From: a virus
DNA: 64,000 nucleotides
IMG/VR virus record: IMGVR_UViG_3300042472_000628
Location: 1 to 64,000 of that record
Reading direction: 5' to 3' (one strand)
Below the pieces are notes generated by a model that was not told the DNA's origin, did no database searches, and worked only from the letters and a program-made list of their open reading frames with translations. Shown in pieces: positions 27,949 to 57,401 of this stretch (its first letter is position 1; every line of letters begins with the position of its first letter). Both the position numbers and the translations under genes were made by a program.

Positions 27949-29163
27949 ATGGCAGCTAACGATTACATAAGAACGGTAAATATCACACCATTGAGTACTA
28001 GTTACTCTTGGGATACACCACCGAGTTGGATCACTATTAATAGAATAGGTACATCTGATGATTGGACTATAACTATTGCCGCTAATAGTGGTATAGCTAG
28101 AAATGCTACGTTAACCGTTAGACATGCTAATACAACTACAGTTGATACAATTAATGTTTCTCAAAGTGCTGGAATTGTAGTACCAACTGCAACACCAATC
28201 GTACCAACTGCAACACCAATTCCACCGACACCAACACCAACTTCACCAGCAGGTGCAGGTTACTCTTTATCTTTTGTTGACTCTAGTTTTACTATAGATG
28301 ATTATACTTTTGGTGGAAATACTTATGTAGACTTAAATTATAATATTACTGGTGCTACAACTCCACCGACATTAGTACAAAAATCAGTATATCTGGATTG
28401 GACAAATCGTTCTGGACCAACTGGAGGTGTAGGTACAATTAGATTATATAGTTTATTACCGCCTGCAGAATTACCAGTTAGTATGCAAATGTTGCCTATT
28501 TTTACGCTTGCACATCCATTAGATAGTGGTGTAACTGCTTCTATTCCTGGTTATATAATTCAAGCACAAGATGAATTAATTATTAGAAATCCAGATCCAA
28601 CATCAGTTCCTAGTCCAACAACACCACCATCTACTGGCGGCGGTGGCGGCGGTGGCGGATGTTTAATTGGAGGAACTAAAATTACTTTATCTGATGGTTC
28701 ATTAATAAACATTGAAAATCTTAATGTTGGTCAAAAATTAATGGCGACTGTTTTTGGAAATATGCCAAACACTGATGATGTTACAACGTTAAAATCTTGG
28801 ACAGAAATTAATCCTTCTATATCAAGTACTGAATCTGAATTAGTTTCAATTAAAGCATATGAAGTTTCTAAAACTTATAATTTCAATAACGGTTTAATAG
28901 TATCTTCAGGAGATCATTTACATATAGTTAAAGTTAATGATTCAACATGGACTGTATTAGAGGCTGAAAATATTAAAATTGGTGACAAGTTCATGACAAT
29001 AAAAGGTGAAGTACTTATAGGAACAATAACAGAAGATCATAACATCACAACTGTTTACAAATTAGATGTTGAACCTAATGACACTTATATTGCTAACGGA
29101 GTGGTTACACATAACTTGAAAGATGAAACACTAAATCCAGTCGAGGATGTTAGACAACAATAA
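27949..29163 (+). CDS. BACON adhesin with C-terminal Hint (intein-like) domain
   Basis: 404 residues. The parts in order are: BACON domain (1-75, near-duplicate of the previous gene), a PTATP linker (about 78-100), a beta domain (about 105-220), a PSPTTPPST plus Gly8 linker, and a Hint domain from Cys238 to Asn389. Hint signs are CLIGGTKITLSDGS at the start, LNVGQKLMA, VSSGDHLHIV (block-B-like), a NDTYIANG strand and VVTHN at the end. The residue after Asn389 is Leu, not Cys/Ser/Thr, and only 15 residues follow. This fits a bacterial intein-like (BIL) self-cleaving domain better than a splicing intein. Autocleavage would free or activate the adhesin end. Confidence 0.75.
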   Translation: MAANDYIRTVNITPLSTSYSWDTPPSWITINRIGTSDDWTITIAANSGIARNATLTVRHANTTTVDTINVSQSAGIVVPTATPIVPTATPIPPTPTPTSPAGAGYSLSFVDSSFTIDDYTFGGNTYVDLNYNITGATTPPTLVQKSVYLDWTNRSGPTGGVGTIRLYSLLPPAELPVSMQMLPIFTLAHPLDSGVTASIPGYIIQAQDELIIRNPDPTSVPSPTTPPSTGGGGGGGGCLIGGTKITLSDGSLINIENLNVGQKLMATVFGNMPNTDDVTTLKSWTEINPSISSTESELVSIKAYEVSKTYNFNNGLIVSSGDHLHIVKVNDSTWTVLEAENIKIGDKFMTIKGEVLIGTITEDHNITTVYKLDVEPNDTYIANGVVTHNLKDETLNPVEDVRQQ

Positions 29164-32635: not shown

Positions 32636-33004
32636 ATGAAAACATTTAATACTTACTTACTTGAAAACTCGGCTACTGAAAAAGAGTTACAACTTATCAA
32701 TGAGGGTTTACAACAAGAATGGACACCTGAATTAGAAGCTAAGATTGATGCAGCTTTAGAGTCATTTGCTCTAGAGTATCAAAAAGCTGATGGTACTTAT
32801 GATATTGAAAAACTTAATGAAGAGATTACTAATGAAGGTTTCTTTGGTTCTATTATCGGTGGTCTTACTGGATTTGCGTTAGGTAAATCAGTAGGTAAAA
32901 TGATAGCTAAGGTTTTAGGTATCGAAAAAGGTATTTTCTTTGACTTATTAACTTCAAGACTTGTTGGTGCTGCTTTAGGTGCTAGTCTTGGTAATAGAAT
33001 ATAA
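32636..33004 (+). CDS. Small capsid-tagged protein with glycine-zipper tail
   Basis: 122 residues. The N-terminus MKTFNTYLLENS resembles the capsid-targeting sequence of T4 internal proteins (MKTYQEFIAEA). LINEG (about 20-24) fits the T4 prohead protease rule (L/I)xE|(A/G/S), and ITNEG near 66 is a looser match. The remaining C-terminus (FFGSIIGGLTGFALGKSVGK and on) is a hydrophobic glycine-zipper sequence that could insert in membranes. A packaged, processed, membrane-active internal protein is inferred. It is followed immediately (ATG at 33005) by the RuvC-like gene. Confidence 0.55.
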   Translation: MKTFNTYLLENSATEKELQLINEGLQQEWTPELEAKIDAALESFALEYQKADGTYDIEKLNEEITNEGFFGSIIGGLTGFALGKSVGKMIAKVLGIEKGIFFDLLTSRLVGAALGASLGNRI

Positions 33005-36704: not shown

Positions 36705-38213
36705 GTGGAGCTTAGTTTAACTGAAAACAAACAGTTGCTTCGTATTGACGTAGCATCTGAATTAGAATTAGAACAACTCAATATATCTCTTAATAAGAGA
36801 ATTGAGTCTTGGCGTTTCAATCCCCTGGTTAAAAAGGGGCTTTGGGATGGCTACGTTTCATATATAAAAGATGATAAGTGGATTCCTTCTGGACTGTGGA
36901 GGGAAGTCATGGGTATTTGTAAGAGCTATGGGTTTGAATTCAAGCTTAATGGTATTACAGATATTTTCGATACGAATATTAACCAAGAAAAATTTAATGA
37001 ATGGGCTTTAGCATTCTTTGATAAATCTGAGATCACTCCCAGAGATTATCAAATAGAAGCTGCATTCAACATTTTAAAATTTAAAAGATGTTTAAGTGAA
37101 TTAGCAACTTCGGCTGGTAAAACACTTATATCATTCTTAACAGTTGCGTACTTGCTAGAAAAACAAAAGGCACAAAAGATTCTCTTTATAGTACCCAATG
37201 TTTCTTTGGTAGTACAAGCAAGTGAGGATTTCCTAGATTATAATTATAGAAATGCTGTAGATATTAAAGTACAGCAAATTTACGCAGGTCAAAAAGTAAG
37301 ACCAGGTAGAAATGTTATTATAGGAACATATCAATCTCTTGTTAAAAAAGACAAAGCATATTTTGAAGAGTTCGATGCAGTTATTGTAGATGAAACTCAC
37401 AAAGCAAAATCAGCATCTATTAAAACCATATTACAAAAGTGTGCAAATGCTAATTACAAATATGGTTTATCAGGTACTATACCAAAAGAAGGCACTTTAG
37501 ATAGATTGACTCTAATGGCATACACTGGACCTCTAATCACTGAGATCAGTGCAAATTACTTGCAAAATGAAGGTCATATTGCAGGTTGTAAAGTAAAAAT
37601 TATAAAAATGGACTACGCTCCGCAATCTACCAAAGATGCGTTTAGAGAGATGTCACAAAACAGGTATGAAAGCAAAGATGTTTTTAAATTTGAACAGAAT
37701 TATGTTATTAATTCACCAGGCCGCCTTAACTTCATTACTAGCATTATTTCCAGAGTTCGCGGTAATAGCTTGGTCTTATTCCATCGTATCGAGCACGGCA
37801 AAAAGATATATGATAAATTACGCAGAGAAAGTGATAAAACAGTTTACTATGTTGATGGAGGAATTGACCAAGATATTCGAGAGGAACACAAAAAGAAAAT
37901 GGAAGCCGGAGAAGAAGTCGTTATTGTTGCATCGTACGGTACATTTTCAACAGGTATCTCGATTAAGAAGATTCACAACATCTTCTTTACGGAATCTTTT
38001 AAATCGGAAGTCATAATTAGACAATCTATTGGTCGTGGTTTAAGACAACATAGTTCAAAAGAGTCTGTTAATATTATTGATTTTGTAGATGATCTTTCAT
38101 CACCGGATTGGGATAATTATTTAATGAGACATTCCAAAGAGAGACAACGTATCTATAAAGAACAGAAGTTTAAATTCGATATTAAAAATGTAGATTTTGA
38201 AGGAGATATATAA
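36705..38213 (+). CDS. uvsW: Recombination helicase UvsW
   Basis: 502 residues (T4 UvsW: 503), superfamily 2. The unusual N-terminal domain aligns with T4 (SWRFNPLVKKGLWDGYVSYI). Walker A is TSAGKT (135-140), the DExH box is DETH (229-232), motif III is GLSGTI, motif V VASYGTFSTGISIK, and motif VI RQSIGRGLRQH. The start is GTG at 36705; no ATG exists in frame between the upstream stop (36666) and this codon, and the alignment to T4 begins here. UvsW unwinds branched DNA and R-loops and helps switch from origin to recombination-dependent replication. Confidence 0.9.
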   Translation: MELSLTENKQLLRIDVASELELEQLNISLNKRIESWRFNPLVKKGLWDGYVSYIKDDKWIPSGLWREVMGICKSYGFEFKLNGITDIFDTNINQEKFNEWALAFFDKSEITPRDYQIEAAFNILKFKRCLSELATSAGKTLISFLTVAYLLEKQKAQKILFIVPNVSLVVQASEDFLDYNYRNAVDIKVQQIYAGQKVRPGRNVIIGTYQSLVKKDKAYFEEFDAVIVDETHKAKSASIKTILQKCANANYKYGLSGTIPKEGTLDRLTLMAYTGPLITEISANYLQNEGHIAGCKVKIIKMDYAPQSTKDAFREMSQNRYESKDVFKFEQNYVINSPGRLNFITSIISRVRGNSLVLFHRIEHGKKIYDKLRRESDKTVYYVDGGIDQDIREEHKKKMEAGEEVVIVASYGTFSTGISIKKIHNIFFTESFKSEVIIRQSIGRGLRQHSSKESVNIIDFVDDLSSPDWDNYLMRHSKERQRIYKEQKFKFDIKNVDFEGDI

Positions 38214-38249: not shown

Positions 38250-40013
38250 ATGCAAAAATTAAAATCATTTGATCAGTTTTCGACTGAGACAAAAATTTCT
38301 CAGACTAGACAACTAGAAGAAGACAAGACTATCAAAAGACAAAATGAAGCTGAAACATTCAAAACATTACTAGCTGAATTTAATGTAACTTCTATCAAAG
38401 AGTTAACACAAGAGCAGAGAGTAACATTTTTTACTAAACTAAGAGGTGCTGAAGTTAATGAATCAGTTTCGTTAATCGAAGAAGGTACAAGAGGTCAAAT
38501 CGGTAAAATTGATAAAAAAGGTAATATCACTTCAGTATATATGCAGTATGATTCATATCCTGAAAATATTTTACCACATCTTAATAAAGGATTTAAAAAC
38601 GGTAAAAATGTTGATGAGTTAATTAAAAAAGGTAGCTTTTCAGGTTTAGAAGCTTCTATCGATAAAATTAGTTTTTATGGAAAACCAGGTCATATGACTG
38701 GATCAGCTACCACAGATGCAGATATTAAGAAATACCTTACAAAAACATCAAACGAAGAATCAGCAGAATATGTTTATTTATGGGATGAAAATGCCAAACA
38801 ATGGTTGATGGCTGATACTTATGCAAATACTGGTTTAGTTCCAGCATTTGAATCACTTTCAGTTTCAGTAAATGAAGCAATTCAAGTACAGTATAAAAGA
38901 GATGCTAAAAAAGTACTTACAGTTTACAACAACTTATTCGGTAAAAAATTAACTGATTTTGGTGCAATGAACATTGACAGTAAATTAGGTTGTATTAAAT
39001 ACTTGTTAGAAGAAGCTATGATAGATGCTAACTTTCATAAAGAAGGACCAGTTGCATCAGCTGCTATTAAAGGTAACATTGGAACTTTTCAAGTTAAAAT
39101 GGCAGGATTAGGAAATTATTTTATTAAAATCGGAGCAACGACAGTTAAAAGAATTTTAGATCAATACGTGACTGATATTTCAGGAGCATCTGGATGGTCT
39201 GGAGTTGGAATAGCTGAAGGTACTGCACTATACTTAGAACAAATTGGACAAGAGACTGCAGGTCAGTCTATGTTAAATGCATTTAATGGAATGTTTAATG
39301 AATCTTTTATTAATGAAGCTGAAAAGTTTAAATCAACGAAAGACTTTGAAGAATTCTGTGAAGAAATCGACAGTATGCCAGAACAAAGGATTAAGAAAAT
39401 AATGGGTAAAGATTACATTGATACTCCAGGTGGTTATAGAGACGAAGCTGAAGATTATGACAATGACATAACTGAATATATGATTTCTAATATGGGTCGT
39501 AAAGACTTTGAAGAACTTAAATCATGGTGGGAAAATAATGTAGCTGAATCTTTCATCAATGAAGCTGAAATTAATTCAGATGAAGAATTTAATGAATATG
39601 CAATGACTGTTTTGAAAAAAGCATTTGGTGCTGAATTCGATGAAGCTAAAGCTAAAAAAGTTGCAGATGGTATTCTAGCAAAATCAAAGGGTGATTATGG
39701 TACTGCCGTTGGTATGTTAACCAGTTCTTTAGGAGAATCAGTTACTAATGAAGCAATCGATACCAAATATTGGGCAGATTATAATACTGACACTTCAGGA
39801 CAAGGAAATAAAGAATTTGCAGAAAAATCTAAAGATTTCGAAGATACATTTTCATTAGCAGTTTCTGAGTGGAACGCTGAGGCAGACGGTGCTGAAAACA
39901 GAATTAAAGGTTCGCAAATTGATAAAGTTAAAAAATTAGCTCAGGAATTCTTCAAAAAAGAAGGTTACATTTCAGTTAACATTGCACAAGCAATGATAGC
40001 ACAAGAATCATAA
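38250..40013 (+). CDS. Capsid-tagged multi-site protein, function unknown
   Basis: 587 residues. The start MQKLKSFDQFSTET resembles a T4 capsid-targeting tag. Prohead-protease-like sites recur: LIEEG, NESFINEAE and AESFINEAE (near 350 and 430), with looser VNEA and VTNEA, so the protein may be cut into several pieces inside the head. The stretch between about 75 and 200 looks globular (GQIGKIDKKGNITSVYMQYD), with a second one about 215-340. No catalytic motif recognised. First gene after the late-like box at 38205. Packaged internal/ejected protein is inferred from the tags. Confidence 0.55.
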   Translation: MQKLKSFDQFSTETKISQTRQLEEDKTIKRQNEAETFKTLLAEFNVTSIKELTQEQRVTFFTKLRGAEVNESVSLIEEGTRGQIGKIDKKGNITSVYMQYDSYPENILPHLNKGFKNGKNVDELIKKGSFSGLEASIDKISFYGKPGHMTGSATTDADIKKYLTKTSNEESAEYVYLWDENAKQWLMADTYANTGLVPAFESLSVSVNEAIQVQYKRDAKKVLTVYNNLFGKKLTDFGAMNIDSKLGCIKYLLEEAMIDANFHKEGPVASAAIKGNIGTFQVKMAGLGNYFIKIGATTVKRILDQYVTDISGASGWSGVGIAEGTALYLEQIGQETAGQSMLNAFNGMFNESFINEAEKFKSTKDFEEFCEEIDSMPEQRIKKIMGKDYIDTPGGYRDEAEDYDNDITEYMISNMGRKDFEELKSWWENNVAESFINEAEINSDEEFNEYAMTVLKKAFGAEFDEAKAKKVADGILAKSKGDYGTAVGMLTSSLGESVTNEAIDTKYWADYNTDTSGQGNKEFAEKSKDFEDTFSLAVSEWNAEADGAENRIKGSQIDKVKKLAQEFFKKEGYISVNIAQAMIAQES

Positions 40014-40037: not shown

Positions 40038-41327
40038 ATGAAGATTTATAATACATTTGAACATTTTTTAACAGAGAGTTTGCACGACAATCATGACTAT
40101 ACACCAATCTTAGAAGGTGGTGCAGCAGGTCATATGTCACACCCATTTGATAATAATGAATTGACGTTTGGTGATTTCAAAGAAATGATTCAAGCCGGTC
40201 TTAGTGGATCTCTTAATTTCGAAGAAGAACCTACTGAAAAAACAGACGGTCAAAATGTATTTGCAACCATTCAAAATGGTGAAGTAAAATTCGCAAGAAA
40301 TAAAGGTGATATGAAAACGCCTATGTCTTTGTCTGATTTTAAGACAAAGTTCGAAGGACATCCTAGTAAATTAGTACAAGACACTTTTCAATTTGCAGCA
40401 GATGATTTAGCATCATCTCTTATTAAACTACCAACCAAAACTCAAGAAGAAATATTTGCAAATGGATTAAACTTCATGAATATGGAATTAATTTATTCTC
40501 TTAATCCTAATGTTATTCATTATGATGTTGATGTTATTCAATTCCATGGTGTAAAAATAACAGACGGTGAAGGTAATATTACAGGAGAAGATAATTCAGC
40601 GGCAAAGAAAATTGCTGGTTTATTAAAAGATGTTGATGCTCATATTCAAAAGACATTCTCTATAATTCCACCACAAGTTATTAAGATAGCTAAAGATATT
40701 AACTTTGATGAAAATAAATCAAAGTTCATAGCTAAAGTTGATGCTCTTAGAGACACATTTGGTTTAACAGATGCAGATGCAGTTGCAAGATACCATGAAA
40801 TGTGGTGGAGAGATCAAATTAATTCAATTTTCCCAGATGCACCACAAGATATTAAAGAAGGTTTACTATTAAGATGGGCATATGATGATAAGAAAACTCT
40901 TAACATCAGAGATCTTGAAAAAATGGGTTTATCAAAAACACAAGCAGATGCTGTAAAGAAATTTGACAAAGAAGATGTTAAAAAGAAATATAAAGAAAAC
41001 ATTAGACCATTCGAAGATTTATTCTTGGAACTTGGATCTATTATTTTAAAGAACGCAAGTAACTTTGTTGCTGCAAACCCTACAGCAGAGATGCAAAGAT
41101 TACACAACGAACTTAGATCAGAATCGGATAAAATTAAAGCAAACGGAGACCTTTCTCAAATTGCAAAAGTTGAAGCAGAACTAGCAAGACTAGACAGGAT
41201 TGGCGGTATTGAATCAATCATACCAACAGAAGGTTTAGTATTTGTTTATAAAGGTCATACTTATAAATTAACAGGAACATTTGCTGCAGTAAATCAGCTT
41301 ATGGGATTTATTAAATACGGTAGATAA
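40038..41327 (+). CDS. Ligase-like nucleotidyltransferase with capsid tag
   Basis: 429 residues. An N-terminal tag MKIYNTFEHFLTES carries LTES and ILEGG cleavage-like sites. EKTDGQN (Lys68-x-Asp70-Gly71) is the KxDG adenylation motif of DNA/RNA ligases and capping enzymes, followed by FATIQNGEVKFARNKGD as motif III-like sequence. EGLVF (398-402) and YKLTG (409-413) fit motifs IV and V. The gap between motifs I and IV (about 330 residues) is much longer than usual, with a helical insertion of about 150-380. It could adenylate RNA, DNA or a protein. Its stop overlaps the next ligase-like gene (TAATG), suggesting a joint task. Confidence 0.6.
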   Translation: MKIYNTFEHFLTESLHDNHDYTPILEGGAAGHMSHPFDNNELTFGDFKEMIQAGLSGSLNFEEEPTEKTDGQNVFATIQNGEVKFARNKGDMKTPMSLSDFKTKFEGHPSKLVQDTFQFAADDLASSLIKLPTKTQEEIFANGLNFMNMELIYSLNPNVIHYDVDVIQFHGVKITDGEGNITGEDNSAAKKIAGLLKDVDAHIQKTFSIIPPQVIKIAKDINFDENKSKFIAKVDALRDTFGLTDADAVARYHEMWWRDQINSIFPDAPQDIKEGLLLRWAYDDKKTLNIRDLEKMGLSKTQADAVKKFDKEDVKKKYKENIRPFEDLFLELGSIILKNASNFVAANPTAEMQRLHNELRSESDKIKANGDLSQIAKVEAELARLDRIGGIESIIPTEGLVFVYKGHTYKLTGTFAAVNQLMGFIKYGR

Positions 41328-43174
41328 TGGCATTACAAAACTTAAGAACATACTTTGAATCCTCTAACATTAATGACTTCTTGTCAATGATAGAGTTACC
41401 ATGCGTTGTATCAGAAAAAATACAAGCATCTTCATTTCACGTTAGAAAAACCAATACAGGATTTGAATATTTTAAAAGTGGTTCTAAATCAGCAATGGAC
41501 AGAATAGACAGAACCATGGTTAAATACTATGAAAATGGTATTAATTATTTTAAAACTATTTTACCAGAAGTTACTGAAGAAATGCCAGTAGATTGGAAAT
41601 TTGGATTTGATTACATGATCGACAACAAGACTGTAGATATTGAGTATGATATTTTACCAAAAAATCACTTAATTTTAACACACATTCAAATATTAAATCC
41701 TACTGATCCAACTCAAATTAAAAAAGTAATTAGAGATCCACAGGTACTAAACAAATGGGCTGATAAATTAGGAGTTAACAGAGCGCCAGTTATTTTTGAA
41801 GGTAAATTACAATCAAATCAAAAAGATGATCTAGTTAGACTTTTAGAAATATCAGATGCTGATTTCGCAATTAAATTTAAAGATCACTCTTTCACAAGAA
41901 CAATATACAATATATTCAATAATGGACTTACAAATCCAGCATTGAACTATTCATTAGATAATGAAATCGATGGACTTATCATTAACTTTTATGAAGGTAA
42001 AACAATTAAAAGTTTTAAATTAGAGAGATTTGATCGTAAACCACAAGAAGACAGATCACCGTCTGATATGTACCAAATTTCAATTTTAGATTTGGTAGAG
42101 TACATTACTAACTACGATCTTGACAGTATTCAATTAACCGAAGAGTCAGCTGACTTAAGATATATTGAATTAATCTCAGAACTATATAACGGTTACGTTT
42201 GGACAAATGCATCTAAATACATTGGTGCTAATTTTGATTCAGCAGATTTTTCAGATAATCCTGGATTTGAACTTAATACAGATTTTATTAAAAACGAAAA
42301 AACTTTAGCACATGTGCAAAATAAGGTTTTAGCAGAATTATATAAAATTGCATTAGGAAGCTTTAGAAAGAGAAGAAATAAAGAGACAGATATTATTAAC
42401 AAAGATTTGATGATTCAGATCAATGACATCGTAGACCATATAGAAACTTTAGTTATGGCTAAAACAAATGAAAACGACGTTATGACATTCAAGTCATATC
42501 TTATTAATCAAAAACTTCAATATACAGATAGTCCAGTTTTAGAAGGACTTTCAGTTAAATATCCAGATCAAGGCAAAATGCCAGTAAATATGTTTGTTGG
42601 TAGATTCCAACCATTTACACTAGGTCATGTTAAAGTTATTGAAACTATTTATAAACAAAATGGATTTCCAGTAGTTATATTTTTAGTTAAATCAAAAACT
42701 AAGAAAAAAGAGGATGCATTCTCAAGACCATATGACGAAGACACTCAACTTAAGATGTTAGAAAAACTTAAAGGAAAATATCCTATTCAAGAAGTTTTTA
42801 TAATTGATAGAGGTGCGATCGATTTAATGTTCAATACAATGAGACCTAAATACGAACCAGTATTATGGGGAACAGGATCAGACAGATTACAAACATATTC
42901 ATATCAAGTTGATAAACCAGAATATAGAGAAGATTTAGGTTGTAGACCAGATTTCGGTTTGTTTGAAATACCAAGAACTGGCAAAAACATATCAGCAACT
43001 CAAGTTAGAGAAGCTATGTTGGCTGATGACGAGAAGACTTTTAAGAAGCTAACTCCAGCACCGATACATGATATGTACAATGAATTAAAGACAAAACTAG
43101 AAGCATCTATGGGTGTTACAGCAGAGTCTAACGAGACTACATTAACATTTGATCAGTTTATTAAGAATATATAA
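41327..43174 (+). CDS. RNA ligase-like domain fused to NMN adenylyltransferase
   Basis: 615 residues. N-terminal domain: VVSEKIQASSFHV (Lys31) resembles motif I of T4 Rnl2-type RNA ligases (EKIHGTNF), and EIDGLIINFYEGK plus FKLER serve as motifs IV and V (about 222-248). After a helical linker (about 300-410), the C-terminal domain begins MFVGRFQPFTLGH (Gly425-His434), the (H/T)xGH nucleotide-binding motif, and has ISATQVR near 566. These are the two signatures of NadM/NadR-type NMN adenylyltransferases that make NAD+. It ends LTFDQFIKNI, a tag-like sequence at the C-terminus. An RNA end-joining or NAD-linked RNA reaction is possible (inference). Confidence 0.7.
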   Translation: MALQNLRTYFESSNINDFLSMIELPCVVSEKIQASSFHVRKTNTGFEYFKSGSKSAMDRIDRTMVKYYENGINYFKTILPEVTEEMPVDWKFGFDYMIDNKTVDIEYDILPKNHLILTHIQILNPTDPTQIKKVIRDPQVLNKWADKLGVNRAPVIFEGKLQSNQKDDLVRLLEISDADFAIKFKDHSFTRTIYNIFNNGLTNPALNYSLDNEIDGLIINFYEGKTIKSFKLERFDRKPQEDRSPSDMYQISILDLVEYITNYDLDSIQLTEESADLRYIELISELYNGYVWTNASKYIGANFDSADFSDNPGFELNTDFIKNEKTLAHVQNKVLAELYKIALGSFRKRRNKETDIINKDLMIQINDIVDHIETLVMAKTNENDVMTFKSYLINQKLQYTDSPVLEGLSVKYPDQGKMPVNMFVGRFQPFTLGHVKVIETIYKQNGFPVVIFLVKSKTKKKEDAFSRPYDEDTQLKMLEKLKGKYPIQEVFIIDRGAIDLMFNTMRPKYEPVLWGTGSDRLQTYSYQVDKPEYREDLGCRPDFGLFEIPRTGKNISATQVREAMLADDEKTFKKLTPAPIHDMYNELKTKLEASMGVTAESNETTLTFDQFIKNI

Positions 43175-43182
43175 TATAAAAC

Positions 43183-44748
43183 ATGGAAACAGAAATGTCA
43201 TTTAACGAATTCATTAACGAAAGAAATATTACTATTAAAAGGCAATATACTCAAAATCATCCAGCGAAAACCGTAGGTAAAGCTGCTAAGATTAGAAATA
43301 AAGTATTAGAAGCTATTAAAGACGGTAAACTTACTAAAGAAGAATTTGATACAATTTTAAGAGAAATGACAACTGATTCTACAAGATGGATGAGAAGAAA
43401 TTCAGGATATATCACAATGAATGAGGAAGGTATTTCACTTTCTAAAATGGGTAAAAGAATCTTAAGTCAAATTTTGGTTAACGATGAGATCAATGAGAAA
43501 GCTACTCCATTTAAAATTGCAAATGCAAAAGCAGAAGAAATATTTGGAGAATTTGGCATTGCTACATTAAGCTATGATCAAATTGAAAGAATCATCGATA
43601 TTAAAAAAGCTGATGCGCTGGCAAAAAAATATGGTGAAAGTAGTTTTATGTCATTATCAGAATTAGATATGGAAGAACTTCTTAATAAGAATAAAAACTT
43701 AATAAAAGAAAATAAAACAAATAATATGAAAACAAATTTTATTCATGAGTCATTCAAAGGATTCGTTAATGCTTTAAATGAATCAGATATTAATGAAGCA
43801 TTTGCATCGATGCAGTTGGCAAATTTATTCACTAGAGATGGTGGTAAACTTGATCAAGCTTTAGCTAAAGGATTCTATAACGCTACTAAAATCAAATTAG
43901 ATTTAGTACAAGATGAAGATCTATTAACAATGGATGCTAATTCAGCTTACAAAAACAAACAATCAGACACTATTATATTTTATATCTCTGACACACCTAA
44001 AGAAAATCCTTATGCACCTTCAGATGCATATAGTTCTGCAAAGAATATTCCAGGCGAAGGTTATTTATTAGCTGTAGCTTCAGGTGATAATAAATTCTAT
44101 GATAACGCATGGTCTAAATATGCTAAAGATAGAAGTCTTAAGCAGGTAGATAATAATCCAACAGACTCAATCGGTATTGGTAAAAGATATTCTGGATGGG
44201 ATGCTACTGGATTATATAATGTAAAAAGAATTTCAGAAGTTGCTGACAGAGCAGTTGTAATTAACGTTGCATTACTTAAACAAAAGTATTCATCAGAAAA
44301 CCAAAGAAGAGAAAGATCTGCGGCTAGATCAGGTGCAACAGCATTTAAATCTGATAAAGATTTTAAAACTGAGAATATGAATAGATACCACCAAATCTTA
44401 GCTCAAAAAGCAGCATCAATGCCATTAGATACACTTGTAGCTGAAGCTATTGATACTTTAAGCAACCAAATCAAAGATGCTTTATTGAAAGGCGAAAAAG
44501 GAAAATACGGAGATATTATCATCGGTACTAGTTCAAAAGGAAGAGAATGTAAAATGTCAGATGCAGCATACCATATGAAAAATATCTTAGATGAATATCA
44601 AAGATATGTTGGTTATGTTAAACAAGAAGAAGATAGTATTGCTAGATATGGTCAAGCAGAATCATGGTATAAAAAAGAAATGCAAAACTACGCAAAAAGT
44701 GTTAAAGACAAAGTTGATCAAATTGGATCAATGTCTTATGCATGGTAA
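43183..44748 (+). CDS. Capsid-tagged protein with a second internal tag
   Basis: 521 residues that read like two proteins in one frame. Residues 1-170: tag SFNEFINERN, then helical sequence. Residues 171-185 are translated A-rich sequence (NKNKNLIKENKTNN). At Met182 (ATG 43726) a new tag begins, MKTNFIHESFKGFVNALNES, with LNES and INEA protease-like sites. The following 300 residues are globular (TIIFYISDTPKENPYAPSDA) with an RxRxSAARSG basic part. The A-rich run before Met182 looks exactly like the intergenic leaders elsewhere in this genome, so a separate shorter product from 43726 is plausible. No catalytic function recognised. Confidence 0.55.
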   Translation: METEMSFNEFINERNITIKRQYTQNHPAKTVGKAAKIRNKVLEAIKDGKLTKEEFDTILREMTTDSTRWMRRNSGYITMNEEGISLSKMGKRILSQILVNDEINEKATPFKIANAKAEEIFGEFGIATLSYDQIERIIDIKKADALAKKYGESSFMSLSELDMEELLNKNKNLIKENKTNNMKTNFIHESFKGFVNALNESDINEAFASMQLANLFTRDGGKLDQALAKGFYNATKIKLDLVQDEDLLTMDANSAYKNKQSDTIIFYISDTPKENPYAPSDAYSSAKNIPGEGYLLAVASGDNKFYDNAWSKYAKDRSLKQVDNNPTDSIGIGKRYSGWDATGLYNVKRISEVADRAVVINVALLKQKYSSENQRRERSAARSGATAFKSDKDFKTENMNRYHQILAQKAASMPLDTLVAEAIDTLSNQIKDALLKGEKGKYGDIIIGTSSKGRECKMSDAAYHMKNILDEYQRYVGYVKQEEDSIARYGQAESWYKKEMQNYAKSVKDKVDQIGSMSYAW

Positions 44749-44763
44749 TAAAAAGATATAAAG

Positions 44764-45402
44764 ATGCCAAGTAAATCAGTTGCACAACAACACTTAATGG
44801 GAATGGCTTACGCTTATAAAAAAGGTGAGTTAAAGTCAGATGAAGTAAGCGGAGAAGTTAAAGACTTGGCTGATTCAATGACTATGCAACAACTTAAAGA
44901 TTTTGCAAGTACAAAACATAAAGGTTTACCCCAATATGTTGAAGAGAATATAACAACTGCTGCAATGGCAGGTATGGGACCAGTAGTTTTACCAATGAAT
45001 GGTGTTAATGGTTCTGGTGATGTACCAGCAGGAAAAGGCGATGCTAAGAAAGCATATAAGAAAAAGAAAAAGAAAACAGTGGTACATTTAACATTTGAAA
45101 ATTTTGTAAACGAAGCATATGAGAACGACGACATCAATATGATGTATGGTTATTTTGGAAGCATGGAACAAGAATACGATGAAGCTAAAGCACATAAAGA
45201 GTTTGATCAAGCAGTAAAAGATTTAATTAAAGAATTTAAGTTTAAAGAACAAGACGCACTGAACTTATTAAATTCAAAGGTAGGAAGGCAAGCAGCAGAT
45301 GCTATCATTGCCAGAGAATGTGAAGAAGGTGCAGTTAACGGAGTTTATTGGTATTTAGGTAAAGATAAAAATAAAGTTTTATCATACACTAAGAAATTGT
45401 AA
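44764..45402 (+). CDS. DUF3008-like domain joined to an internal capsid tag
   Basis: 212 residues. Residues 1-56 (MPSKSVAQQHLMGMAYAYKK, then MTMQQLKDFASTKHKGLP) match the small DUF3008 family pattern (AQQ.LMGMA...KG, ...L.DFA.TKHKGLP). A Gly/Lys linker with KKAYKKKKKK (about 96-105) then leads to a tag-like VVHLTFENFVNEAYEN and a helical C-terminal part. A packaged DNA-associated basic protein is possible; function unknown. A strong terminator follows, closing the tagged-protein block. Confidence 0.55.
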   Translation: MPSKSVAQQHLMGMAYAYKKGELKSDEVSGEVKDLADSMTMQQLKDFASTKHKGLPQYVEENITTAAMAGMGPVVLPMNGVNGSGDVPAGKGDAKKAYKKKKKKTVVHLTFENFVNEAYENDDINMMYGYFGSMEQEYDEAKAHKEFDQAVKDLIKEFKFKEQDALNLLNSKVGRQAADAIIARECEEGAVNGVYWYLGKDKNKVLSYTKKL

Positions 45403-45422
45403 TAATTAATATAGATATTTTT

Positions 45423-45452
45423 AAAGCCCAAGCGTAAGTTTGGGCTTTTTTT
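45423..45452 (+). terminator. Intrinsic terminator after the tagged-protein block
   Basis: Perfect nine-base-pair stem AAAGCCCAA (45423-45431)/TTGGGCTTT (45440-45448), eight-base loop, then a T-run to 45452. Confidence 0.85.
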
Positions 45453-45459
45453 ATGAATT

Positions 45460-45540
45460 GTTCGTAACTTTTATGAAAATAAATGCAAAAAAGTTTTGGG
45501 TTGTCAAATATTAGTAGTATATTAGCCTTATAATTAAAAC
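45460..45540 (+). promoter_or_regulatory. TATATTAG promoter with GTTnnnAAC operator, copy A
   Basis: GTTCGTAAC (45460-45468), 49 bases, then TATATTAG (45518-45525), followed by an AT-rich start region shared with copies B (47976) and C (49444). TTTTG lies 19 bases upstream of TATATTAG. This spacing and the box are close to the Bacteroidota promoter (TTTG/TAnnTTTG), so host-type sigma factor use is likely. The start codon is 25 bases beyond. Confidence 0.55.
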
Positions 45541-45550
45541 ACTAACAGAT

Positions 45551-45817
45551 ATGACAGTTACAACTTATACAAACTTTGACAGACATGAAAACATGGATTC
45601 TGAAACTAGAACAGAAATCATGTCAATCATTAGAGAACTTATGGACTTTGATAATACTCGTCGCTTAGAAAATTTTATGTATGGTTTATTTGATGGGTAT
45701 TTATATGCAGATCTTCAAATTGAAGCTTTACAGTTACCTACAGAAATTGCCTCAAGAATTATGAGAGTATTCGATATCTGTAACCGTTACCCAAAATTAC
45801 AAACTCAAAACAATTAA
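45551..45817 (+). CDS. Small acidic protein, unknown
   Basis: 88 residues, mostly helical (TRTEIMSIIRELMDFDNTRR). No family recognised. First gene after promoter copy A and directly followed (three bases) by another small gene, so the two form a short operon. Early, host-directed function would fit the promoter type but is not shown. Confidence 0.6.
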   Translation: MTVTTYTNFDRHENMDSETRTEIMSIIRELMDFDNTRRLENFMYGLFDGYLYADLQIEALQLPTEIASRIMRVFDICNRYPKLQTQNN

Positions 45818-45820
45818 TAT

Positions 45821-46114
45821 ATGAACACTTTAGAACAAATTGAAAAAGTAAAAGAATTAGTGTCAAACTATTTTGACAAAAATGCAGAATGGTGTGGAGT
45901 AGCATCTCTATCAGAATCTGAAGCACAACATGTGATCCAAATCGGTGCATCAATTTTATGTACTAAATGGGAAGTTGGTTATGCTGGTGGAGGTTTTGTA
46001 CAATCATTCGTTAAAAATGATTTAATGGGTGCTTTAGGTAGTGCAGACTCAACAAGTCTTAAAGGATTTAAATTCTTTGCAGCCTTAATGTATAATATTG
46101 GAAAACCTTTCTAA
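45821..46114 (+). CDS. Small protein, unknown
   Basis: 97 residues. N-terminal helix LEQIEKVKELVSNYF, then EWCGVASLSESEAQHVIQIG and a Gly-rich segment VGYAGGGFVQSF. Not recognised. Lies three bases after the previous gene, in the same operon, and ends just before a middle-type promoter. Confidence 0.55.
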   Translation: MNTLEQIEKVKELVSNYFDKNAEWCGVASLSESEAQHVIQIGASILCTKWEVGYAGGGFVQSFVKNDLMGALGSADSTSLKGFKFFAALMYNIGKPF

Positions 46115-46120
46115 TATTTT

Positions 46121-46149
46121 TGAAACAATAAAAAACTTAGTAGTATAAT
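46121..46149 (+). promoter_or_regulatory. Middle-type promoter of the Ro60-like gene
   Basis: TGAAACAA (46121-46128), 15 bases, TATAAT (46144-46149); it is preceded by TTTT, giving TTTTG at the host-type -33 position too. It also shares the TATAATw(t/a)TCAAAT sequence with the clamp promoter at 60759. Confidence 0.6.
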
Positions 46150-46178
46150 TATCAAATTAGCAATTTAACATAGACGTT

Positions 46179-53840: not shown

Positions 53841-54512
53841 ATGAAAAATAAAGCAGAAGATGCATGGCAAATCCTAAGAATTCAAGGAGAATTTACAAAA
53901 GGATTTGATACATTTAGCGAACTGGGCCCATGTATTTCCGTATTCGGAAGTGCAAGAACCAAAGTTGCAACTAAATGGTATGAAGAGGCAAAATTATTCG
54001 GCAAACTAATTGCATGTGAAGGTTTTGGTGTAATTACAGGAGGTGGTCCTGGTATTATGGCAGCAGCTAATCATGGCGCAAAAGAAGTTGGTGGTAAATC
54101 TATTGGAATTGGAATTGAATTGCCATTTGAAGCAGGAATGAACAAGTATGTTGACCTTGGAGTTGAGTGTAGGTATTTCTTTACACGTAAAGTTATGTTC
54201 TTAAAATACTCACAAGCGTTTGCAGTATTTCCTGGAGGTCTTGGTACAATGGATGAATTATTTGAAGCTATTACATTAGCACAATGTGGACATAATGTAA
54301 AATACCCAATAGTTTTAGTTGGTAAAGAATACTGGACAGGATTAGTAGATTGGCTTAGAAACGTTGTACTTGAAAATGGTAAAATGAGTGATAAAGATTT
54401 TGATCTATTTAGAATCGTAGACAGTGCAGAAGAAGCAAGAGATAAAATCATGGAATATCATAACAAATATATGACAGATCCAGAATATTTAGGAAGTAAA
54501 ACAAATTTTTAA
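53841..54512 (+). CDS. LOG-family nucleotide phosphoribohydrolase
   Basis: 223 residues, the usual LOG size. Clear motifs are ISVFGSART at the N-terminus, GVITGGGPGIMAAANHGAKE (about 56-75), and FPGGLGTMDELFEAITLAQ (about 133-151); the last is the PGGxGTxxE catalytic signature with its Glu. These enzymes cleave nucleoside 5'-monophosphates to free base and ribose 5-phosphate. In this cluster it may remove or recycle a base during synthesis of a modified nucleotide, or drain host pools (inference). It starts 11 bases after the previous gene. Confidence 0.85.
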   Translation: MKNKAEDAWQILRIQGEFTKGFDTFSELGPCISVFGSARTKVATKWYEEAKLFGKLIACEGFGVITGGGPGIMAAANHGAKEVGGKSIGIGIELPFEAGMNKYVDLGVECRYFFTRKVMFLKYSQAFAVFPGGLGTMDELFEAITLAQCGHNVKYPIVLVGKEYWTGLVDWLRNVVLENGKMSDKDFDLFRIVDSAEEARDKIMEYHNKYMTDPEYLGSKTNF

Positions 54513-54514
54513 TT

Positions 54515-55411
54515 ATGTCACACGATAAACACACAAATAGTAATAGAAATCAGGATCTAAATCTAATGATGCCAAATAGACAGGCTTGGTTAGATTTAGC
54601 AGGTGATTGGAAAGATCCATTCGATTCTCCTAAAATTGTAGAACATGATGGATTTAACGTAGTTCGAGAAGATTTAATGGGCTTTGGATCTAAATGTAGA
54701 TTTGGTGACATCTTAGTTAGTAAATGTCAAACAGATACATTAGTATACGTTCAACCTCGTTTTGGTTTTGCTGGAATTTCATTGGCATATTTAGCTGAAA
54801 AGTACAATAAGAAATTGGTCTTATTTAGTCCATCTCAAAAAGAGATTTCAGATCATCAAGCTATTTGTATTGAGAATGGCGCTGAAATGAAATTTAAAAG
54901 AATCGCAGCAATGCCAAATCTGAATGCACATGCAAAAAGATGGGCTGAAGAAAACAATGCAACTTTTATTCCATTAGGTTTAAAACATGAATTAGTTACA
55001 GCGGCTGCAGTTAAAGTAGCTTATGATCTTGCAGAGGAACATGGATACCCGAAAGAAGTTTGGTCTGCTATTTCAACAGGAGTTTTACAAAGAGCTTTAC
55101 AAATCGCATGGCCAGATGCAGACTTTAATGCAGTGGCAGTTGCACGTAATATCAAAGATGGTGAATTAGGAAGAGCAAATGTATGGTCACATCCTAAACA
55201 ATTTAATCAAGATGTAGATGCTGCATATATGCCACCGTTTCCTTCAGCTACTAACTATGATGCAAAAGCATGGGAATTTATGAAAAAACATGGAAATCCA
55301 GGTGCATGGTTTTGGAATGTAGGTGGAGATCCTAAACCAAAACAAATGACTACTAAAGAAACTGTTAATTCTCAAAGAGGATGGGGAGAAGTTTTGGAAA
55401 TGGATCAATAA
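54515..55411 (+). CDS. PLP enzyme, ACC deaminase/D-cysteine desulfhydrase-like
   Basis: 298 residues, fold type II PLP pattern: VVREDLMGFGSKCRFGD (50-65) matches the (K/R)(D/E)DL.G...GNKxRKLE segment of this family, making Lys60 the likely PLP lysine. Downstream, the strand and helix with VQPRFGFAGISLAYLAEKYN and VLFSPSQKEI fit the cofactor-binding half. It is shorter than cellular homologues (about 330-340). Known members deaminate or eliminate from small amino acids; the substrate here is unknown. Placed two bases after LOG, so the two probably act in one pathway. Confidence 0.7.
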   Translation: MSHDKHTNSNRNQDLNLMMPNRQAWLDLAGDWKDPFDSPKIVEHDGFNVVREDLMGFGSKCRFGDILVSKCQTDTLVYVQPRFGFAGISLAYLAEKYNKKLVLFSPSQKEISDHQAICIENGAEMKFKRIAAMPNLNAHAKRWAEENNATFIPLGLKHELVTAAAVKVAYDLAEEHGYPKEVWSAISTGVLQRALQIAWPDADFNAVAVARNIKDGELGRANVWSHPKQFNQDVDAAYMPPFPSATNYDAKAWEFMKKHGNPGAWFWNVGGDPKPKQMTTKETVNSQRGWGEVLEMDQ

Positions 55412-55416
55412 AAACC

Positions 55417-55446
55417 TGAAACTAAATTAAAAATATTCATATTAAT
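55417..55446 (+). promoter_or_regulatory. Variant middle-type promoter before dUTPase
   Basis: TGAAACTA (55417-55424), 15 bases, TATTAAT (55440-55446). It has one change in the upstream box and a weaker -10 than the other copies, but the same 15-base spacing. Confidence 0.4.
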
Positions 55447-55464
55447 ACTATAACAAAATAAAAA

Positions 55465-55932
55465 ATGGCAAACATAGACAACGAATGTAAAGATCTAGAA
55501 GTACAAGACTTTTACGACCAATCGACAACACACTTAGAAGATATTATGTCGCATCAAAAAGAGATGCAAGAAAAAACTTATGGAATTAAGTTTGACGAAA
55601 TGTCAATTAGAGAAGTAATGAATTTTTGGCATGTTAATACTCACGCAGTTATTGATGAGTTACATGAAATGACAGATGCTCTTGGTGGTATTAAAGATGG
55701 CTCTGGAAATGCAGTATGGAAATACTGGAAAAAAGACTTCTCAAAATATGAAACTATGAAAGTTTCAGATCTATCAGAAGATGATCGTAAAGAGTTGTTC
55801 ATGGAATGGATCGATGTATTACATTTCTTTATTAATTATGCAGCATCAATTGGCCTAGATGCAAAAACAGCATATAATTATTATTTCGCAAAAGCAGAAG
55901 AGAATAAAAACCGTCAAAAACGAGGCTATTAA
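55465..55932 (+). CDS. Dimeric dUTPase/MazG-like pyrophosphatase
   Basis: 155 residues, all helical. Acidic metal-binding segments are DELHEMTDALGG (about 64-75) and FMEWIDVLHFFINYAASIG (about 112-130); the end reads FAKAEENKNRQKRGY, the (K)xEEN..RQ..GY tail of the dimeric dUTPase family. These enzymes hydrolyse dUTP (some dCTP) to monophosphate. The role would be keeping uracil out of phage DNA or supplying dUMP for thymidylate or modified pyrimidine. It overlaps the DNA polymerase start (TAATG). Confidence 0.75.
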   Translation: MANIDNECKDLEVQDFYDQSTTHLEDIMSHQKEMQEKTYGIKFDEMSIREVMNFWHVNTHAVIDELHEMTDALGGIKDGSGNAVWKYWKKDFSKYETMKVSDLSEDDRKELFMEWIDVLHFFINYAASIGLDAKTAYNYYFAKAEENKNRQKRGY

Positions 55933-57344
55933 TGTTATTAGATATAGAACAAACCGAAAAGGAACTAATAGTTTCATATTACGACAAAGAAGGAAAGGTT
56001 TCCTTCAAGAGATATTCTGTAAACCAATTCCAAAATTGGGTAGTCACAGAAGAAAAAGATAAGCATAAAGATAGTACCTATAGAAATTGGGACAATAGAC
56101 CACTTAAAAGAGGTATTGCAAAATCTTTTAATAAATTTAGTTTGTTATATTTCATGGACTCTTTGCCTGAAAAAGACAAAGAAGAGATCTATGAATTTAA
56201 TATGCCACGAACATACTTCGTCGATATTGAAACCGAGATCGTTGATGGTTTCCCAAAACCAGAAGAGGCTAAGTCTCGTATCTTAACATTTTCAATTATT
56301 ACGCCTGAACGTAAAGCAATTGTATTAGGTCTTGAAGATTTAACATCAGAACAAATTGCTAAAATTGAAAAGGATACTAATGCACACTTAAAAAACTACG
56401 ACACTGATTGGGACTTTTCATATCATAAGTTTGATGATGAGTACAATATGTTGTATACATTCTTACATAAGTTTTTGCCTAAGTTCCCAATGATGACAGG
56501 GTGGAACTTCATTAACTATGACTGGCAGTATATAGTCAATAGATGTAAACGATTACAGATTGACCTGACTGAAGTGGCAATCACTGGTAGCTTAGACAAG
56601 ACAGATCAGCGACCAATGCACATGGGAATTTTGGATTATATGCAATTGTATGATAAATATGACAGATCAGTTGCTGTAAAAGAATCAAATTCATTAGACT
56701 TTGTTTCTGGTGCAGTATTAGATGTTAATAAAATCAAATACAGCGGATCATTAACAGATCTTTATAATAATGATTTTACAAAGTATGTTTTTTATAACGT
56801 AATTGACTCGTGTCTTGTATATTATATAGATCGACAATTAAGATCAATGGAAGTACTTTTAACATTAGCAACTATTACAAGAATGCCTTTATATAAAGCT
56901 TCGTCACCTGTGGCAATCACAGAAGCTTTGTTAGCAAGAAAACTAGCAGAAACAAATAAAAAGATTGGTATAGAATACGGCAAAGCAGATTCTCTTAAAG
57001 AAGGTAAATTTGAAGGAGCATTTGTAAAGCAACCTATTGTTGGTTATTATAGTGGAGTAAGTGCATTTGACTTTGCATCACTATATCCTTCAATCATGAG
57101 ACAGTTTAATATTTCTCCCGAGTCATTCGTTGAACAAGTTCCTGAATCTGAAATTATCGAAAGACGAAAAGATACAGCTGTAATTGTTTGTGAAAATGGT
57201 GTAGTATTTAAGAAAGAAGACTCAATTCTTAAAAAGATTCTAAGTGATTTATATGCTCAGCGTAAAGATTACAAAGCTACTTCATATAAATATTATGAAA
57301 AAGCACATGAGCTAGAAAAAAAACTAAAAAAAATTAAAAATTAA
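55932..57344 (+). CDS. 43A: DNA polymerase gp43, N-terminal half
   Basis: 470 residues covering the N-terminal domain, 3'-5' exonuclease and first palm segment of a family B polymerase. Exo I is YFVDIETEI (Asp98, Glu100), Exo II GWNFINYDWQYI, Exo III-like YNVIDSCLVYY, and motif A FDFASLYPSIMRQFNISPES with catalytic Asp380. It stops in the fingers after the helix KYYEKAHELEKKLKKI. Motifs B and C are missing and are found 4.2 kb downstream in the 61566 gene. The frame is clean to its stop, so this is a genuine split gene. Confidence 0.92.
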   Translation: MLLDIEQTEKELIVSYYDKEGKVSFKRYSVNQFQNWVVTEEKDKHKDSTYRNWDNRPLKRGIAKSFNKFSLLYFMDSLPEKDKEEIYEFNMPRTYFVDIETEIVDGFPKPEEAKSRILTFSIITPERKAIVLGLEDLTSEQIAKIEKDTNAHLKNYDTDWDFSYHKFDDEYNMLYTFLHKFLPKFPMMTGWNFINYDWQYIVNRCKRLQIDLTEVAITGSLDKTDQRPMHMGILDYMQLYDKYDRSVAVKESNSLDFVSGAVLDVNKIKYSGSLTDLYNNDFTKYVFYNVIDSCLVYYIDRQLRSMEVLLTLATITRMPLYKASSPVAITEALLARKLAETNKKIGIEYGKADSLKEGKFEGAFVKQPIVGYYSGVSAFDFASLYPSIMRQFNISPESFVEQVPESEIIERRKDTAVIVCENGVVFKKEDSILKKILSDLYAQRKDYKATSYKYYEKAHELEKKLKKIKN

Positions 57345-57370
57345 TTTTCGAAGGTAACGCCAATACACTT

Positions 57371-57380
57371 GATATATAAA
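57371..57380 (+). promoter_or_regulatory. Late-like box before nrdB
   Basis: GATATATAAA, 21 bases before the nrdB ATG. One base off the usual consensus, and no GAAACAA box 15 bases upstream. Confidence 0.3.
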
Positions 57381-57401
57381 TTACAAAAAAATACAACTAC
57401 A

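Follow-up and report, generated by a model that had tools for sequence, protein, structure and literature searches.

A putative RNA ligase-like and NMN adenylyltransferase-like fusion protein, possibly head-packaged, in uncultured T4-like phages

The 64,000-nucleotide stretch analysed here (positions 1 to 64,000 of the IMG/VR virus record IMGVR_UViG_3300042472_000628; hereafter, the window) belongs to a virus record of 165,454 bases (G000) and contains an open reading frame (ORF), designated ORF C, that forms a single unbroken chain of 615 codons. ORF C joins an N-terminal half predicted to adopt the covalent nucleotidyltransferase fold of T4 RNA ligase 2 (Rnl2) to a C-terminal domain of the nicotinamide mononucleotide (NMN) adenylyltransferase (NMNAT) type, and it ends in a short tag. 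The fusion is encoded by a widely distributed group of T4-like phages, uncultured and for the most part marine. We propose, with a probability of about 0.45, that ORF C is packaged in the head and serves in repair and counter-defence, where it would seal RNA (or nicked nucleic acid) and rebuild nicotinamide adenine dinucleotide (NAD+). An initial annotation had described two nucleotidyl-transfer activities in this chain, and the presence of two such domains is borne out by fold and conserved motifs. The features of ORF C are as follows.

41327–43174, +: ORF C, 615 residues, ATG start; Rnl2-like nucleotidyltransferase domain (predicted), helical domain, linker, NMNAT domain and C-terminal tag
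41327–42076, +: predicted ligase-like nucleotidyltransferase domain, residues 1–250 (top PDB match in Foldseek, T4 RNA ligase 2; invariant residues)
41414–41437, +: motif I EKIQASSF, residues 30–37, with the candidate nucleophile Lys31 at 41417–41419 (conservation)
41609–41611, +: Asp95, motif III-like acid (GFDY); D in 70, E in 30, Q in 12 and N in 1 of 113 sequences
41969–42019, +: motif IV-like Asp215 to motif V-like Lys231 (conservation among the 113)
42077–42451, +: helical domain after the ligase core, residues 251–375 (DSSP of the model)
42575–43111, +: NMNAT-like domain, residues 417–595 (PF01467; VIA)
42599–42628, +: GRFQPFTLGH, a (T/H)xGH motif, residues 425–434 (conservation)
42989–43009, +: ISATQVR, an ISSTxxR-type motif of the NMNAT domain, residues 555–561
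43142–43165, +: C-terminal tag LTFDQFIK (LTFxxF-type motif)

The two domains of ORF C

The AlphaFold model of ORF C had a mean predicted local distance difference test (pLDDT) value of 83.5, with values of 83–96 in most blocks of residues 1–300. In Foldseek searches of the PDB with this model, T4 RNA ligase 2 occupied ranks 1–4 (from 2hvr, 6.8e-8, to 1s68, 1.5e-5; probability 1.00, TMt 0.42–0.53), followed at lower ranks by a fungal tRNA ligase, an archaeal RNA ligase and T4 Rnl1. The initial annotation had stated that a placement of residues 1–250 outside the nucleotidyltransferase fold would speak against it; with T4 RNA ligase 2 as the top match, no such placement was observed. The model argues for an Rnl2-like fold of the N-terminal half. 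The VIA rows for ORF C were filled by the NMNAT domain, and the failure of ligases to appear in them is therefore no evidence.

The loci of relatives came from three scans that overlapped heavily and, because many loci recurred between scans, distinct sequences were counted. Among 113 distinct N-terminal domains, E30 was found in 113/113 and K31 in 105/113, position 215 was D or E in 107 and position 231 was K in 94; E30, K31, K50, R62, D215 and K231 were invariant in 37 aligned ORF C relatives. Motif I departs from the KxxG form, as the window sequence reads K-I-Q-A, and glycine occupies the last of these positions in 26/113. K31, D95, D215 and K231 are spaced much like the catalytic residues in T4 Rnl2. 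No curated family in Pfam or NCBIfam matched the N-terminal half, and an NCBIfam search for ligase family membership returned chance-level matches only. PDB profile searches yielded nothing with sequence profile A5 and only weak unrelated matches with profile A2; hhalign comparisons of the profile pairs A1–A2, A4–A3, A5–A4 and A5–A3 were not significant, and the motif I columns aligned in two of them.

The C-terminal domain matched CTP_transf_like PF01467 over residues 422–562 (32 bits, cut-off 21), and residues 419–595 of the model aligned in VIA with the archaeal NMN adenylyltransferase 1f9a (Z 14.2, root-mean-square deviation 2.6, 154 aligned residues). Chains of pantetheine-phosphate adenylyltransferase (PPAT) lay within one Z unit, so the substrate is not fixed by the fold alone. 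GRFQPFTxGH was kept in 98/98 distinct complete fusions, and the combination of GRFQPxTxGH with ISATxVR likens the domain to the NadM/NadR class. The best specific NCBIfam models for ORF C were NMN adenylyltransferases, all under cut-off (TIGR01527, 26.3 bits versus 181.2), and the PHROG matches 3041 and 395 covered the NMNAT part only. A full-length, unannotated match, A0A6J5NWC5 ('Cytidyltransferase-like', 1.2e-47), was found in a viral-protein structure library. All the motifs quoted in the initial annotation were thus recovered (EKIQASSF at residues 30–37, GRFQPFTLGH at 425–434 and ISATQVR at 555–561); its numbering of Lys31 is correct, since EKIQASSF spans residues 30–37, and the conservation of E30, K31 and GRFQPFTxGH puts the motifs beyond chance.

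The ratio of nonsynonymous to synonymous substitution rates (dN/dS), calculated against two relatives, was 0.05–0.07 for residues 1–250 and 0.09–0.15 for residues 417–595. A chance ORF or an assembly artefact was ruled out by these low values together with the 98 distinct complete fusions. The linker between the domains was modelled with low confidence (pLDDT about 45–51).

ORF B and other arrangements of ligase-like and NMNAT domains

ORF B, which overlaps ORF C by one base, is probably a second ligase-like nucleotidyltransferase.

40038–41327, +: ORF B, 429 residues, predicted second ligase-like nucleotidyltransferase; one-base overlap with ORF C (VIA Z 8.9)
40236–40253, +: motif I EKTDGQ of ORF B (Lys68), invariant in 37/37
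40485–40487, +: Glu150, motif III acid of ORF B, invariant
41229–41267, +: motifs IV (Glu398 Gly399) and V (Lys410) of ORF B, invariant

The ORF B model (pLDDT 87.9; predicted template modelling score, pTM, 0.81) gave weak Foldseek matches (best 5.8e-3), the best 20 of which were all RNA or DNA ligases. In VIA, residues 26–422 aligned with the Naegleria RNA ligase 6vt9 (Z 8.9), and ligases appeared in the top 45 rows. EKTDGQ, R87, E150, EG398–399 and K410 were invariant in 37 relatives and almost wholly so across the 17 sequences of a broader set, in which the E, K, D and G of motif I were present in 17/17. In the loci fetched with ORF B, the ligase domain of ORF C was found in 80/80 and the NMNAT domain in 72.

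The NMNAT domain was present in 98 of the 111 distinct complete ORFs with the ligase domain of ORF C and absent from the other 13. In L082, L083 and L085, NMNAT is a separate gene of 198–199 residues lying between B and C. It lies downstream in L205, L206, L215, L235 and L238, joined to a stretch resembling the start of ORF D. The huge-phage forms L002–L005 lack both NMNAT and K31. The ORF C versions of L214 (9236–12589) and L228 (9236–12580), with 1114–1117 residues, extend about 500 residues past NMNAT and carry Q where motif I otherwise has its lysine. Two further proteins combine an NMNAT with a ligase domain of the ORF B type: a 639-residue protein of Microcystis phage Mel-JY01 (WWT39297.1, 'cytidylyltransferase like protein') and a 915-residue protein of the huge phage LR756508, which shares the domain order of the Mel-JY01 protein.

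A possible third association involves DUF6267, which was matched in 468/50,697 phage records. In the seven cyanophage records common to both search listings, the DUF6267 and NMNAT matches lay ≤25 bases apart in five; they were 644 bases apart in DLP_6 and far apart in ACG-2014f, where the match was partial. The DUF6267 gene is directly upstream of the NMNAT gene in P-HM2, S-SZBM1 and S-PRM1, the two read as a single 728-residue ORF in metaG-MbCM1, and S-CRM01 has DUF6267 with no NMNAT within the 6 kb fetched. The invariant residues of DUF6267 (K-x-D-G-A-P, E-G and K) form a ligase-like pattern. Because profile comparisons with it were not significant, we infer from the K-x-D-G, EG and K residues and from gene position that DUF6267 may be a ligase-type nucleotidyltransferase. 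The initial annotation, which made no mention of ORF B, of tags or, as sequence alone could not reveal them, of distant relatives without K31, had suggested that the fusion couples NAD or NMN chemistry to nucleic acid ends. The differently built associations in Mel-JY01, LR756508 and the DUF6267 neighbours favour coupling as such; its examples of NAD-capping, decapping or repair with locally made NAD+ gained no direct support.

Tags, genomic setting and the proposed role of ORF C

Several ORFs around ORF C carry short tags resembling the sequence that targets T4 proteins to the capsid. The neighbouring features are as follows.

32636–33004, +: 122-residue ORF with the tag-like start MKTFNTYLLEN; its relatives account for most of the commonest tagged upstream ORFs
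36705–38213, +: UvsW-like DNA helicase, immediately preceding the cluster (phrog_16, 274.5 bits)
38250–40013, +: ORF A, 587 residues, with the tag LKSFDQFSTE and internal SFINEAE repeats (phrog_1987, 5.2e-16, a function-unknown family)
40038–40076, +: ORF B N-terminal tag, MKIYNTFEHFLTE, with F10 and E13 unchanged across 37/37 aligned sequences
43183–44748, +: ORF D, 521 residues, with the tag MSFNEFINE
44764–45402, +: ORF E, 212 residues, with DUF3008 (PF11450, 50.8 bits) and an internal tag-like LTFENFVNEA, read from the sequence

The N-terminal pattern [YF]xxF[IL]xE, the definition of which varied slightly between counts, starts ORFs A, B and D and was found in 91/108 distinct ORF B sequences. 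Within the cluster (the helicase gene through 4 kb beyond ORF C), 222/647 distinct ORFs had the tag in their first 22 residues, versus 10/647 in residues 31–52 of the same ORFs. Upstream of the cluster it was present in 54/556 distinct ORFs, most commonly relatives of the 122-residue gene at 32636. It also occurs on small genes that relatives carry as insertions between B and C (e.g. MKNIKLFEDFINEG and MKKAKLYEQFLNEG) and on 8/8 distinct split-off NMNATs. The N-terminus of ORF C itself lacks this targeting sequence, by which T4-type internal proteins are recognised. At the C-terminus, an LTFxxF-type motif was found within the last 22 residues of 85/98 distinct fusions, versus 2/2452 control windows, and the short ligase-only forms L082, L083 and L085 retain it.

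In T4, the targeting sequence directs proteins into the head and is then cleaved, and the internal proteins are described as diverse injected defence proteins with this sequence as their sole common feature (PMC3012670, PMC5694885); ipII and ipIII both start MKTYQEFIAEA in the T4 record. The cytidylyltransferase gp154 of cyanophage S-CREM2 starts MKNFSSFLTEA and was detected in virions by three unique peptides (PMC10665884). In S-CREM2, 4/6 tagged ORFs were virion-detected, versus 41/189 ORFs overall (p 0.02), in a small test from which the stretches 42001–57474 and 107401–117999 were left out and in which 2/6 matches concern doubtful genes or starts. By analogy with T4, the tags suggest virion delivery.

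Other tagged proteins were noted. In S-CREM2 (L258/L259; gp6, gp12, gp13 and gp14), a virion-detected S-adenosylmethionine (SAM) hydrolase, a kinase and a small protein share the tag start, and a Cas9-like protein is a near match. G000 encodes a tag-bearing Nudix hydrolase (MKHLKKYDQFINE; PF00293, 48 bits; 158049–158537) and a tagged HAD-like protein starting MKHLKNYTEYLNE (159120–159719). A tagged 294-residue gene between B and C (L082:10561–11445, L085:9109–9993) resembles by eye a polymerase-beta-type nucleotidyltransferase; a Pfam search with the L085 copy gave no match. An argument from late promoters was dropped, as TATAAATA lay ≤80 bases upstream of seven plus-strand genes versus one on the other strand, with none near B or C.

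G000 was considered T4-like because it encodes a gp23-type capsid protein (PF07068, 152.3 bits), a gp21-type prohead protease (PF03420, 43.4 bits), a gp20-type portal and the UvsW-like helicase; the order of UvsW followed by the cluster is shared with cyanophages S-CREM1 and S-CREM2. In the search for a cellular origin or host link, the one scan of genome contigs gave 42 pattern matches and zero relatives, and the plasmid search gave none.

Elsewhere, G000 encodes nicotinamide phosphoribosyltransferase (NadV; 133858–135438, L249:9858–11438; NF006629, 530 bits), adjoined by a Thg1-like gene (132479–133324). It also encodes a NADAR domain (130893–131405, 166 bits), a polyA-polymerase/CCA-adding-type head domain at 48056–48790 (PF01743, 67.5 bits) and a metallophosphoesterase; a Macro match at 129435–129998 was weak and under cut-off. 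An NAD and RNA-repair theme has been described in large phages, including salvage by NadV with NadM/NadR (PMC9503650), and the NadV, Thg1, NADAR, polyA/CCA-type, metallophosphoesterase and tagged Nudix and HAD-like genes fit this theme. As a constant partner of the fusion, NadV was rejected, since it was found in only 2/24 related virus records (many perhaps fragments); local NMN supply is therefore probably not a general feature.

In the proposed role, ORF C would be packed into the T4-like capsid and enter the cell along with the phage DNA. Its N-terminal half would transfer adenosine monophosphate (AMP) onto Lys31 and then to a 5'-phosphate, thereby sealing breaks or nicks in RNA (or nucleic acid) in an Rnl2-like manner, and its C-terminal half would convert NMN and adenosine triphosphate (ATP) to NAD+. 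ORF B would be carried along as a second ligase-like enzyme, and in the first minutes B and C might constitute a ready kit against the cleavage of tRNA and the depletion of NAD+ by the earliest host defences. The computed basis of this proposal consists of the intact fusion, both folds, the motifs, purifying selection, the pairing with ORF B, the recurring association of NMNAT with ligase-like domains, the enrichment of tags and the gp21 and gp23 genes. The catalytic activity, packaging and ejection, RNA substrate and counter-defence role of ORF C are predictions.

Several observations weigh against this proposal. ORF C of the window had no match to Pfam RNA_ligase PF09414 at E 1, nor was the gathering cut-off reached; the only match among 21 family members (0.006) was to L214, a variant without the motif I lysine. 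Profile comparisons among C, B and DUF6267 were not significant. K31 is replaced by N, Q or D in 8/113 distinct N-terminal domains (L174, L214, L228 and the five huge-phage forms L001–L005). The C-terminal tag of ORF C lacks the cleavable Glu of T4 and is at the opposite end of the protein, and only 5/184 ORFs of G000 matched the N-terminal tag pattern (0.8 expected). The S-CREM2 authors conceded possible contamination (PMC10665884), and gp154 has no ligase domain. The rarity of NadV belongs here as well.

The alternative that survives best, although we consider it unlikely, is that both enzymes are real but used unpackaged in the infected cell, NMNAT acting in NAD+ salvage with NadV, as in phage NAD+ reconstitution pathway 2 (NARP2), and the ligase in RNA repair, with fusion serving co-expression only and the tags marking some other interaction. 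The NadV gene in the same genome, the phage NadV plus NadM/NadR salvage already described (PMC9503650) and the missing cleavage Glu would all fit, but NadV is rare among relatives, the tag is enriched in the cluster and retained on split-off NMNATs, and a tagged cyanophage NMNAT was found in virions (PMC10665884).

It is less probable still that the domains descend from enzymes but now serve the head as structural core or scaffold proteins, with catalysis lost or irrelevant. Such reuse could account for the replacement of K31 and for the huge-phage forms L002–L005 without NMNAT and K31; however, the motif residues are invariant in 37/37 close relatives for both C and B, and dN/dS is low.

Two readings in which the domains cooperate both seem improbable to us, and only marginally different from scaffold reuse in this respect, even though coupled chemistry on one RNA end, or NMN recycling, would explain the repeated joining of the domains better than separate repair functions. 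In the first, ORF C would be a self-recycling NAD+-dependent ligase: the ligase would take AMP from NAD+ and release NMN, from which NMNAT and ATP would restore NAD+. LigA, an NAD+-dependent ligase, has a domain that binds NMN. NMN is both a by-product of NAD+-dependent ligases (PMC8131947) and a substrate of NMNAT, and NadV would be unnecessary, which fits its rarity; however, the fold matches are ATP-dependent RNA ligases, with no NAD+-dependent ligase among the best 50 Foldseek matches. In the second, the domains would act sequentially on one RNA 5' end, with NMNAT adding nicotinamide mononucleotide to A-started RNA or removing it (NAD-capping or decapping) and the ligase adenylylating or sealing the end. 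The finding that ligase-like domains are joined to NMNATs in more than one way would fit, as would a 2021 review that raises the question of an enzyme for post-transcriptional NAD-capping, proposes NMNATs as possible candidates and RNA ligases as makers of A-pp-RNA, and states that none was known (PMC8131947). On the other hand, E. coli NadR and NadD had no RNA activity in the review authors' own tests (PMC8131947), a low-confidence linker joins the domains, and they are separate proteins in some phages. The stronger version, in which injected ORF C would act in this way before phage gene expression and would be the first enzyme of its kind for post-transcriptional NAD-capping, decapping or NAD-RNA repair, is the least probable of all.

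Other genes of the window and comparison with known systems

The G+C content is ~31% across the whole window, and no tRNA genes were found in it. A Ro60/TROVE-like RNA-binding protein with a vWA domain is encoded at 46179–47606 (phrog_850, 5.4e-155; DUF2828, DUF7788), and no homologue was found in most of the related loci scanned. By eye, a family B DNA polymerase is apparently split between the ORFs 55932–57344 and 61566–62774, with ribonucleotide-reductase-like genes between them, and a Hint/intein-like stretch (CLIGGTKITLSDG ... VVTHN) is present at the C-terminus of a tail-region ORF (27949–29163).

We found no published report of a ligase–NMNAT fusion, or on DUF6267, in the open-licence literature. 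Intact tRNA and NAD+ are two currencies of phage defence and counter-defence, and one widely distributed protein combining a ligase-type enzyme and an NAD+ maker, with signs of virion delivery, would link both. If the tag is a capsid-targeting signal, head-packaged proteins could be read from the genomes of uncultured T4-like phages. For B and DUF6267, ligase-type nucleotidyl transfer would become a predicted function.

T4 RNA ligase 2 (gp24.1; 2hvr, 2hvq, 1s68) resembles ORF C as its top PDB fold match, with a motif I Lys, motif III and IV acids, a motif V Lys and a helical domain after the core. ORF C differs from it in its ~11% identity, EKIQAS rather than KxxG, the lack of a Pfam match, the NMNAT fusion and the tag. 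The NMNAT domain shares its fold (Z 14.2), GRFQPxTxGH and ISATxVR with the NadM/NadR-type NMN adenylyltransferases (1f9a, 2qjo), but ORF C falls far under the NCBIfam equivalog cut-offs and its partner domain is ligase-like rather than a Nudix or kinase domain. With the T4 internal head proteins (IPI–III, Alt), the cluster shares the seven-residue [YF]xxF[IL]xE, which unrelated proteins carry close to their N-termini, and G000 the gp21-type protease and gp23-type capsid; in contrast, the ORF C tag is C-terminal and without Glu.

The cyanophage cytidylyltransferase (S-CREM2 gp154, S-CREM1 'NadR-like') is similar in its NMNAT-type domain, its N-terminal tag, its place after UvsW and, for gp154, its presence in virions. 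It has no ligase domain in the chain, unlike ORF C, and DUF6267 may be its separate neighbour in related cyanophages. The Mel-JY01 protein and the LR756508 ORF also place an NMNAT and a ligase-like domain in one chain, but in the reverse order and with a B-type rather than a C-type ligase domain. Of the NARP2 enzymes, NadV and a putative NMNAT are both encoded in G000, but NadV was found in only 2/24 relatives. Each domain of ORF C is of a known kind; what is new is that they are combined, that a second ligase-like gene is paired with them and that the protein is tagged.

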